A stretch of 64,000 nucleotides of DNA, from NCBI GenBank assembly GCA_016219965.1, contig JACRJM010000015.1, forward strand, positions 467,857-531,856. The letters are read 5' to 3'. Positions 33,392-36,222 of the stretch are shown here, in pieces. The notes beneath the pieces were generated by a model. It did not search any database, had not been told where the DNA came from, and saw nothing but the letters and a program-made list of their open reading frames with translations. Position numbers and translations under genes: made by a program. The stretch comes from Candidatus Schekmanbacteria bacterium. GTDB lineage: Bacteria > Schekmanbacteria > GWA2-38-11 > J061. Every line of letters starts with the position of its first letter. Position 1 is the stretch's first letter.

Positions 33392-34174
33392 ATGCTTCTT
33401 GCCATAGACGTAGGGAATACCAACACTGTGATTGGCGTATTTGACGGTGATAATTTTATCACTGACTGGAGAATTGCCACTGTCAGCACATGGACTGCTG
33501 ATGATTTCTTTGTCACATTCAAAAACCTATTTGAGTTCGAGAAAAGTGTCTTTCTTGAAGAGATAAAAGATGTGATTATTTCAAGCGTTGTTCCTGCAAC
33601 GATTGCGCCTTTGAAAGAGATGGCTGAGAAATATTTCAAAGCTAAGCCGGTAGTTGTTGACAACAAGGTAAATACAGGTCTCAAAAATCTCTATGAGAAT
33701 CCAGCGGAAGTAGGAGCCGACAGGATAGTGAATGCCGCCGCTGCTTATAAACGGTATGGAGGTCCGACTATTGTCGTTGACTTCGGAACTGCGACAACAT
33801 TCTGCTACATCACGTCTAAAGGAGAATATTGCGGAGGAATAATAGTCCCCGGGATAAAAATATCAATGGACGCCCTTTTCCAGAAAGCGGCAAAACTCCC
33901 AAAGATTGAGCTGATAAAACCGCCGACTGTCATTGGCAAAAACACGGTTAACAGTATGCAATCGGGAATATTGTACGGATACGCTGCTCTTGTTGACGGA
34001 TTGATAACAAGGATGGAAAAGGAGGTCGGGAAAAAATGTTTTGTTGTTGCAACAGGCGGACTTGCTATGCTCGTTGCAGGAGAAAGCAAAAAAATAAAAG
34101 AAATAAACCAGATGCTCACCATCGAAGGCCTTAAGATAGTCTATGAATTGAACAAGAAGAAAAAGAAAACATAA
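33392..34174 (+). CDS. coaX: Type III pantothenate kinase
   Basis: A 260-residue CoaX. ATG 33392, with an AAGGAAAA site upstream, is preferred to the overlapping frame start at 33341. The motifs DVGNTNTVIGVF (residue 5), GADRIVNAAAA (about 105-116) and VDFGTATTFCYI (about 127-138) are the three ASKHA phosphate/pantothenate-binding signatures. It phosphorylates pantothenate with ATP as the first step of CoA synthesis, and unlike CoaA is not feedback-inhibited by CoA. It ends at a terminator (34203-34238). Confidence 0.95.
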   Translation: MLLAIDVGNTNTVIGVFDGDNFITDWRIATVSTWTADDFFVTFKNLFEFEKSVFLEEIKDVIISSVVPATIAPLKEMAEKYFKAKPVVVDNKVNTGLKNLYENPAEVGADRIVNAAAAYKRYGGPTIVVDFGTATTFCYITSKGEYCGGIIVPGIKISMDALFQKAAKLPKIELIKPPTVIGKNTVNSMQSGILYGYAALVDGLITRMEKEVGKKCFVVATGGLAMLVAGESKKIKEINQMLTIEGLKIVYELNKKKKKT

Positions 34175-34257: not shown

Positions 34258-34307
34258 TTGACAAAATGAATAAACGGTATATTCTGAATAATCAGAATAA
34301 TCAGAAT
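34258..34307 (+). promoter_or_regulatory. Promoter with palindromic/9-bp repeat operator for the hgcC-like/arsM operon
   Basis: TTGACA at 34258-34263 is a consensus -35. A -10 candidate overlaps the operator, either TATATT at 34278-34283 (5/6, short spacing) or TATTCT at 34280-34285 (16-bp spacing). Inverted arms ATTCTGA (34281-34287) and TCAGAAT (34292-34298) have a 4-bp spacer. A third half-site TCAGAAT is at 34301-34307, giving a 9-bp direct repeat AATAATCAG. An operator over the -10 suggests repression, for example by an ArsR-type regulator; no such gene is in the window. Confidence 0.6.
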
Positions 34308-34326
34308 ATACAAAATGGAGGTTGTC

Positions 34327-34623
34327 ATGCAGAAAAGAAAAAAAGGAAAAAAAGAGAGCAAGGCATGCTGTGGTTCCGGAATGGTATCCGCCATGAAAGG
34401 GTGCTGTAAGGTGGACGCGGTTGTCCCGGTTGATTCAAGGGGACAGATAGTGCTGCCAAAGGAACTTCGAAAAAGAGCAGGGATCAAGGAAGGAGAAAAG
34501 ATTGCGTTAATAAGCTGTGAGACCGGAGGGGATGTAATGTGCATTGCCCTGGTAAAGGCAGATCATTTTGCGGAAATGGTAAAAGGCGCTCTTGGACCGA
34601 TGCTTAAAGACATAATGGAATAA
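34327..34623 (+). CDS. HgcC-like (HgcAB-associated) AbrB/SpoVT-family protein
   Basis: A 98-residue protein. GGAGG at 34317-34321 is five bases before the ATG at 34327. The N-terminus is Lys-rich and then Cys-rich: ACCGSGMVSAMKGCC. It leads into an AbrB/MazE swapped-hairpin domain with VDSRGQIVLPKELRKRAGI, the DNA-binding signature. The C-terminus (LVKADHFAEMVKGALGPML) matches what I know of HgcAB-associated proteins, first noted beside the mercury-methylation genes hgcAB. No hgcA or hgcB is in this window; the partner here is arsM, 28 bp downstream. A thiol metal(loid)-sensing regulator is the likely role (inference). Confidence 0.78.
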   Translation: MQKRKKGKKESKACCGSGMVSAMKGCCKVDAVVPVDSRGQIVLPKELRKRAGIKEGEKIALISCETGGDVMCIALVKADHFAEMVKGALGPMLKDIME

Positions 34624-34651
34624 GGGATAATTCTTATATGAGGGATATACT

Positions 34652-35479
34652 ATGGAAAAAGAAGAAATAAAAAAGGCTGTAAGGGAAGGTTATGGGAAGA
34701 TTGCCAGAGGTGGAGGCTCATGCTGCGGTCCTTCAAAATCATGCGGTGATGCTTCTGATCTTAGAAAGAACATAAGCAAAATGATTGGCTACAATGATGA
34801 AGAACTTAAAACAGTGCCAGGAGATGCCAATCTCGGTCTTGGATGCGGGAACCCAATCGCTATTGCACTTTTAAAAGAAGGAGAAACTGTTCTTGACCTC
34901 GGCTCAGGTGCAGGACTTGACTGTTTCATTTCAGCAAAAGCAGTTGGTGAAAAGGGGAAGGTAATAGGGGTTGACATGACTCCGGACATGCTTGACAAAG
35001 CTAGAAAGAATGCCGCGGATGGAAACTATAAAAATGTCGAATTCAGGCTTGGGGAAATTGAAAATCTTCCGGTTGCAAACGACTATGTGGATGTAGTAAT
35101 CTCAAATTGCGTCATAAACCTAGCTCCCGACAAAAAAAGGGTATTCGACGAAGCTTTCAGGGTGTTAAAACCGGGTGGAAGGATAGTTGTTTCGGATGTT
35201 GTATATGTAAAAAAACTGCCTCAGGAAATCCTTGAAAAGATTTCAGCATATGTGGGATGTATTGCAGGAGCCTTAAAAAAAGAGGAATATATTGAAGCAA
35301 TAAGCAATGCGGGTTTTACGGCAGTCAGCATAATGAACGAAAAATCTTTTCCGCCGGAAGGAACTCACGAATTCCGTGGGTCAGGAGAGTTTATGAAACA
35401 GTTTAATATTCCGGTGGAAAAAATAAAAGAAATTGCCGGCTCAGTATTAAGTATTACTGTGACGGGAAGTAAACCGTAA
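34652..35479 (+). CDS. arsM: Arsenite methyltransferase
   Basis: A 275-residue class I SAM-dependent methyltransferase. The N-terminal CCGPSKSC cysteines and an LGLGCGNP motif precede LDLGSGAGLDCFI (SAM motif I, about residues 87-99). VDMTPDMLDKARKNA, VVISNCVINLAPDK and the AYVGCIAGAL segment carry the conserved ArsM cysteines that bind As(III). It methylates arsenite stepwise to mono-, di- and trimethyl species using SAM and thiols. It follows the HgcC-like gene by 28 bp and shares its operator. No arsB, arsC or arsR gene is visible. Confidence 0.92.
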   Translation: MEKEEIKKAVREGYGKIARGGGSCCGPSKSCGDASDLRKNISKMIGYNDEELKTVPGDANLGLGCGNPIAIALLKEGETVLDLGSGAGLDCFISAKAVGEKGKVIGVDMTPDMLDKARKNAADGNYKNVEFRLGEIENLPVANDYVDVVISNCVINLAPDKKRVFDEAFRVLKPGGRIVVSDVVYVKKLPQEILEKISAYVGCIAGALKKEEYIEAISNAGFTAVSIMNEKSFPPEGTHEFRGSGEFMKQFNIPVEKIKEIAGSVLSITVTGSKP

Positions 35480-35505
35480 AAGGTATAATTTTTGGAGGAC
35501 AGGAC

Positions 35506-36222
35506 ATTAGCATTCGTTTAATCTCACTGCAAATAGGAAGCGTCAGGACGTATGGAGCTGAAGGTTCAGATGATCCGGCGGACCGTCCCCAGAATATATG
35601 GACAAGCGGATTTATCAAAGAGCCTGTTGATGATAAACTATGGGCAGGCAAGGAAGGTATAGAGGGAGATGGACAGGCAGACCGTAAGAATCATGGAGGC
35701 GCTGACAAGGCTATACTTGCATACTCCGCAGGGCATTACCCTGTGTGGAGAAAAGAACTTAATCTTCCTCAGCTTGCTTATGGGGCATTCGGTGAAAATT
35801 TCACAATCGAAGGACAGGATGAAGATTCGGTTTGTATAGGTGATATTTATTTAATAGGAGAAATACGGGTACAGGTTTCACAGCCCCGCCAGCCATGCTG
35901 GAAACTTGCAAAGTTCCTGAATGTAAGCGATCTAGTTGCCCGTGTGCAGGATACAGGACGCACAGGTTGGTATCTCAGAGTTCTTACTGAAGGTTTCATT
36001 GAAAGCAACCTGCCTGTAACCCTTGCCGAGCGTCCATATCCTGAATGGACTACAAACCTTGCCAGCCGCATAATGCTTAAGTGTACAGAAAACCCTATGG
36101 AGGATGCAGCAAGACTGGCATCATGTCCGGCGCTTTCAATTAGCTGGAAAGAATCTCTGACTGCCATTGCATTTGACGGAAAAGGGAAGGACACTAAGGA
36201 CAGAATATCCGGGCCGCGGTAA
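35506..36222 (+). CDS. MOSC domain protein with apparent ATT start
   Basis: A 238-residue MOSC-domain protein (YiiM-like). The frame runs from the stop at 35470-35472 with no ATG, GTG or TTG before ATG 35743, yet the coding region upstream of 35743 is family-like: ISLQIGSVRTYG, WTSGFIKEPV and NHGGADKAILAYSAGHYPVW. The only well-placed initiator is ATT at 35506, seven bases after GGAGG at 35494-35498. MOSC domains carry sulfur on a conserved Cys (here QPRQPCWKL) for molybdenum-cofactor-type sulfur transfer. Either a rare ATT start or a sequence error explains it. It follows arsM by 26 bp. Confidence 0.82.
   Translation: MSIRLISLQIGSVRTYGAEGSDDPADRPQNIWTSGFIKEPVDDKLWAGKEGIEGDGQADRKNHGGADKAILAYSAGHYPVWRKELNLPQLAYGAFGENFTIEGQDEDSVCIGDIYLIGEIRVQVSQPRQPCWKLAKFLNVSDLVARVQDTGRTGWYLRVLTEGFIESNLPVTLAERPYPEWTTNLASRIMLKCTENPMEDAARLASCPALSISWKESLTAIAFDGKGKDTKDRISGPR

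Follow-up and report, generated by a model that had tools for sequence, protein, structure and literature searches.

An AbrB-fold HgcC-like regulator gene paired with arsM under a 9-bp-period operator: a probable arsenic-linked regulatory unit

Introduction

Several described systems bear on the small AbrB-like genes found beside methylation genes for mercury and arsenic. NCBI names the whole of family NF040962 after hgcAB ("HgcAB-associated protein HgcC"). An AbrB/PrlF-like gene lying upstream of hgcA, mostly in archaea, is read as toxin-antitoxin related in PMC10349881, which also cites the control of hgcAB by an ArsR protein, with a response to arsenic, in Pseudodesulfovibrio mercurii ND132. 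For AbrB itself, the sites bound in Bacillus are pairs of TGGNA pentamers separated by a 5-nt gap (PMC11135676, PMC11497800).

Here we describe a locus in which an HgcC-like gene is followed by arsM, and compare it with homologous loci from bacteria and archaea. All positions refer to the window, i.e., the whole stretch of 64 kb of DNA that was analysed. To our knowledge, AbrB-fold proteins have not been recognized as arsenic sensors. A literature search, with subscription papers mostly outside its scope, returned no description of AbrB/SpoVT-type control of arsM, of a link between HgcC and arsM or of a TCWGA operator; the absence of an arsM-HgcC link from this literature is not proof of novelty.

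Organization of the hgcC-arsM locus

Between coaX, encoding type III pantothenate kinase and ending at 34174, and a gene for a MOSC-domain protein lies a compact unit made of a promoter, a palindrome, an AbrB-fold gene and arsM, all on the + strand. The promoter is of sigma-70 type (34258-34285), with TTGACA at 34258-34263, a spacer of 16 bp and TATTCT at 34280-34285. The predicted operator is an imperfect palindrome of 35 bp (34277-34311) whose 17-bp arms are 88% complementary, and it contains the 9-bp repeat TCTGA-N4-TCAGA-N4-TCAGA, i.e., three TCWGA units at 34283-34287, 34292-34296 and 34301-34305, the first of which is overlapped by the -10 element. A GGAGG ribosome-binding site, read from the sequence (34317-34321), precedes the regulator gene (34327-34623, 98 aa), which starts at ATG 34327 and has a further in-frame ATG upstream at 34315. 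After a gap of 28 bp comes arsM (34652-35479, 275 aa), the gene of an arsenite S-adenosylmethyltransferase. The first-pass annotation had already proposed an HgcC-like AbrB protein with arsM 28 bp behind it and a palindromic operator with a 9-bp repeat at 34281-34307; the family scores given below confirm the two genes, and the operator as first drawn falls within the palindrome.

The MOSC-domain gene (35506-36222, + strand) begins 26 bp past arsM, with GGAGG at 35494-35498 and an apparent ATT start that lies earlier than GTG 35743, the only start listed by the ORF finder. It is possibly co-transcribed with arsM, and it was not kept at the one same-order locus inspected. No ArsR gene is present at the hgcC-arsM locus.

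The ArsM protein scores 353.6 bits against NF008823 (cut-off 263). Its cysteines stand at positions 24, 25, 31, 65, 91, 153 and 203, of which Cys 65 (in GLGCGNP), Cys 153 (in SNCVINL) and Cys 203 (in YVGCIAGA) are presumably the catalytic set.

The HgcC-like protein and its cysteines

Against NF040962 the regulator protein scores 105.9 bits (cut-off 70), and its AbrB domain is recognized by PF04014 (33.1 bits, cut-off 24.7) and TIGR01439 (37.3 bits, cut-off 28.3), while neither Pfam nor NCBIfam gave an HTH_5 or ArsR match. In the AlphaFold (AF2) model, an AbrB-like core with pLDDT above 90 is followed by a C-terminal helix, and the nearest PDB folds are those of SpoVT and AbrB, with weak E-values of 0.02-0.5; these matches and the model place the protein in the AbrB/SpoVT swapped-hairpin DNA-binding fold. 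It matches AbrB/MazE families, including Pfam MazE_antitoxin, as expected if HgcC were the antitoxin of a toxin-antitoxin pair (MazE/PrlF-like), which PMC10349881 proposes for the hgcA-linked gene. However, the gene that follows HgcC is in most cases arsM, hgcA, acr3 or arsF, and a toxin-like gene is neither present at this locus nor recurrent across the homologous loci read; we reject this reading, to which we leave hardly any probability.

Counted from the GQxVLP motif, a cysteine at -12 is found in 95% of arsM-linked and 95% of hgcA-linked homologues, and a CC pair at +32/+33, common to both groups, in 93-99%. The first (position 27 here) precedes the first strand and the pair (71/72) sits in the last hairpin. 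Of these, C27 and C72 are retained in the window protein, which has additional cysteines at 14, 15, 26 and 64, but position 71, which is Cys in nearly all relatives, is Met. Since M71 replaces the first cysteine of the pair, this protein may bind a ligand differently, and we consider this substitution to be the main weakness in applying a sensor model to the window copy. The missing cysteine of the three would suit a repressor with no metal ligand, either constitutive or dependent on growth phase like the transition-state regulator AbrB, in which the cysteines would hold structural zinc or form disulfides; the AbrB fold also agrees with this possibility, as does the binding of bipartite pentamers, the TGGNA pairs, by AbrB itself (PMC11135676, PMC11497800). 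We nevertheless regard it as improbable, because none of the conserved cysteines falls within the GQxVLP DNA-binding motif and the partners of the family are for the most part arsenic or mercury genes.

Genomic partners of HgcC homologues

Searches with NF040962 covered 822 genomes (232 from the methanogen class, 345 Desulfobacterota and 245 Dehalococcoidia) and were complemented by a protein-query scan of a wider genome-contig collection, giving in all about 210 homologues with flanks, for which the gene directly 3' on the same strand was scored as the partner. In Dehalococcoidia, arsM followed 30 of the 32 HgcC genes and other genes the remaining 2. The 43 Desulfobacterota cases were divided between arsM (28), hgcA (13) and other genes or flanks too short to score (2), and the methanogen class presented 60 hgcA, 41 arsM (one of them followed by acr3) and 13 other or too short. 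As their model is named for hgcAB, these searches should not favour arsM. The wider set of query-like proteins, from Chloroflexota, Nitrospirota, Spirochaetota, Bathyarchaeota, Thermoplasmatota, Latescibacterota and others, had arsM in 20 of 28 cases, acr3 in 2 and other or too short in 6, proportions that are biased to arsM because the set was collected with an arsM-linked protein as the similarity query. Among the sampled sets, hgcA is thus the commonest partner only in the methanogen class and arsM is elsewhere.

After removal of redundancy, 118 homologues were linked to arsM and 73 to hgcA, and no hgcC gene was followed by both. The share of arsM among surveyed homologues with a named partner is about 60%, and the overall arsM:hgcA ratio is not a population estimate because the three lineages were picked from genomes holding homologues. 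In some genomes (G511, G237 and G238) two HgcC genes are present, of which one precedes arsM and the other hgcA.

Other arsenic genes also occur as partners. In two Archaeoglobales, acr3 follows HgcC directly (one was checked against its family), and in three methanogens (L205, L209 and L211) the HgcC gene is followed by those of ArsF and ArsG, with ArsF family-checked in one and ArsG in two. At L205 and L211 an ArsR gene lies directly upstream, giving organoarsenical-type clusters in which two candidate regulators are adjacent. The earlier suggestion that the family may serve arsenic, or thiol-metal sensing in general, beyond mercury methylation is supported on the arsenic side by arsM, acr3 and arsF-arsG partners in many lineages, and the concern raised with it, that a link to arsM might be found only here, is answered by the 118 arsM-linked homologues.

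A few loci depart from these arrangements. The HgcC gene stands alone in four Bathyarchaeota (L008, L010, L013 and L016), in two of which it adjoins RNA polymerase and ribosomal protein genes, and a clear TCWGA array was seen at one of the four, L010. At L086 the HgcC gene (1674-1973) is followed by only the C-terminal part of arsM, apparently a remnant. Finally, the HgcC homologues of two methanogen loci (L194 and L206) are near genes for a DGC-domain protein (Pfam-confirmed in L194) and ArsR-like or YeeE-like proteins, possibly a further metalloid context.

A shared operator that follows the regulator

The TCWGA triple described above is the sole one with a 9-bp period within the window, and the operator is the sole match to TTCTGAWTNATCAGAAT with 0 or 1 mismatch in the 3.58-Mb genome; sites with 2 mismatches lay, where their regions were read, in or beside unrelated genes, and this genome-wide search did not reveal a wider regulon. 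Upstream of HgcC genes in general, the spacing of TCAG/CTGA cores (10, 8 or 9) varies with the orientation of the cores, which means that TCWGA units are centred exactly 9 bp apart. At 116 arsM loci this spacing was observed 165 times versus 2.2 expected from dinucleotide shuffles, and at 73 hgcA loci 83 times versus 0.7, i.e., 75 to 119 times above the shuffles; orphan HgcC loci gave 10 versus 0.2. Further peaks appeared at distances of 18, 27 and 36, distances of 8 and 10 were not enriched to a similar degree, and runs of at least three units were present at 54 of 116 arsM loci and 22 of 73 hgcA loci, with 0 expected.

The dependence of the array on HgcC was controlled using 62 loci from Desulfobacterota and the window's own order, which were found through arsM or hgcA and split by the presence of HgcC. 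Chains of three TCWGA units occurred in 15 of the 23 HgcC-adjacent loci and in none of the 39 HgcC-free arsM or hgcA loci (p = 5e-9), and therefore the array tracks the regulator and not the target gene.

Among the 52 bacterial homologues with a TTGACA element, the array started most often 27-31 bp past it, covering the -10 element and the region of the start site, which is where a repressor would be expected to bind. At the methanogen loci inspected, it adjoins an A/T-rich TATA-like stretch, a layout compatible with either direction of regulation.

The source genome

The source genome measures 3.58 Mb and is 98% complete. Its single HgcC and its single full ArsM are both encoded in the window, where the HgcC-like gene is next to arsM and not adjacent to hgcA or hgcB. 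It does possess hgcA (C4:635687-636712) with hgcB behind it, the pair spanning C4:635.7-637.0 kb on another contig than the window's; HgcA (398 bits) and HgcB (112 bits) both exceed their NCBIfam cut-offs. In this hgcAB-positive genome, the sole HgcC thus belongs to arsM. The hgcA-hgcB pair (also L264:4119-5518) has neither HgcC nor ArsR alongside and no TCWGA array, and we rejected control of this hgcAB in trans by the window HgcC because the array is absent there. In the cap-helix motif of its HgcA, NVWCAAGE, a Glu occupies the position that is Lys in the other HgcA proteins compared. An arsR-acr3-(radical SAM)-arsC cluster, of which arsC and the radical SAM gene were named by eye, lies near C3:592 kb, and the four ArsR-type matches of the genome are all on contigs other than the window's. 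The first-pass statement that hgcA, hgcB and ars transport genes are lacking holds for the locus but not for the genome, given the pair on C4 and the arsR-acr3-arsC cluster on C3.

Evolution of the partners

The HgcC-linked ArsM proteins are clustered in the ArsM tree, with 3 changes, which is consistent with a co-inherited unit. Clustering by partner, arsM or hgcA, is also seen in the HgcC tree, yet at least 8 partner changes are needed, in a tree that is poorly resolved because it has 75 columns only. As to a single origin of the hgcA linkage, the AU test rejected a single hgcA clade only modestly (p = 0.025, 77-row subset). The HgcC tree is unrooted, and the number of switches and their direction (arsM first or not) are uncertain.

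Discussion

A regulatory unit composed of hgcC, arsM and their operator is strongly supported. Computation established that the two genes are paired and that this pairing recurs, that the operator is shared and depends on HgcC, and that the cysteines are common to the arsM and hgcA contexts, and from here we infer DNA binding, repression and the identity of the ligand. The reading that we prefer, with a probability of roughly two in three, is that hgcC-arsM is an autoregulated arsenic-methylation unit whose AbrB-type repressor responds to a thiophilic metalloid, with As(III) as the probable ligand. The HgcC-like protein, as a swapped-hairpin DNA binder of AbrB type, would bind the TCWGA array with its 9-bp period, thereby covering the -10 element and the start site, and hold the operon off, its own gene included. 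A thiophilic metalloid, likeliest As(III) or its trivalent methylated products, would then be captured by the thiols of positions 27 and 71/72 and free the protein from the operator, after which arsM would be expressed and arsenic methylated. Elsewhere, the same pair of HgcC and operator would be coupled to acr3 and arsF-arsG, and to hgcAB in methanogens and some Desulfobacterota.

The strongest rival takes HgcC for a general thiol-reactive metal or redox sensor, responding to Hg(II), other soft metals or oxidation and fitted to any detoxifying gene for methylation or efflux, because the same parts precede hgcAB: the cysteine framework is identical before arsM and hgcA, and the hgcA context is common (73 loci). 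That AbrB proteins are not classical metalloid sensors also speaks for it. On the other hand, the other named partners are all arsenic genes (arsM, acr3, arsF-arsG), and inspection of the loci read, rather than a search by name, revealed no mer or czc context; on balance we find a general sensor unlikely, if clearly more credible than a ligand-free repressor.

Returning to the arsenic-sensing repressor, the HgcC family appears to be associated with arsenic, and through it the methylation of mercury may be connected to the control of arsenic genes. A more ambitious proposal, which we put forward tentatively and at somewhat less than even odds, is that HgcC, as a cysteine-bearing AbrB protein acting on a 9-bp TCWGA array, forms a distinct class of arsenic-responsive repressors which served arsM first and was recruited several times to hgcAB, so that mercury methylation in many methanogens would be switched by arsenic and not by mercury. 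HgcC would be a second regulator, unrelated to ArsR, to point to arsenic control of hgcAB. Why cells keep hgcAB is a standing question; arsenic-switched mercury methylation in many methanogens, if true, would hint at what HgcAB natively does, and the defined DNA site makes the idea directly testable. The operator and cysteines held in common connect the control of arsenic methylation with that of mercury methylation in bacteria and archaea. For annotation, since arsM is a more frequent neighbour of HgcC than hgcA in our survey, the name of the family is misdirecting and could suggest mercury methylators where there are none.

Comparison with known systems

The window protein resembles HgcC of NF040962 in family score, AbrB fold and 9-bp TCWGA operator, and in its cysteine layout except at position 71, but its partner is arsM and not hgcAB, and the family name fits only part of the family. 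It shares with the archaeal prlF/abrB gene the small AbrB-like product and the position directly upstream of its partner, whereas the excerpted text of PMC10349881 reports linkage to hgcAB and neither a link to arsM nor an operator. With the ArsR/SmtB repressors of ars operons and, as cited in PMC10349881, of hgcAB in ND132, HgcC would have in common an arsenic-responsive control and the same logical role; in contrast, these repressors have an unrelated winged-helix fold, and the ArsR genes of the source genome are located elsewhere. Finally, Bacillus AbrB and SpoVT present the same fold and the same beta-alpha-beta DNA-binding core, AbrB sites are likewise pentamer-based, and HgcC differs from them by its TCWGA pentamer, the fixed 9-bp period, a local rather than global regulation and its conserved cysteines.
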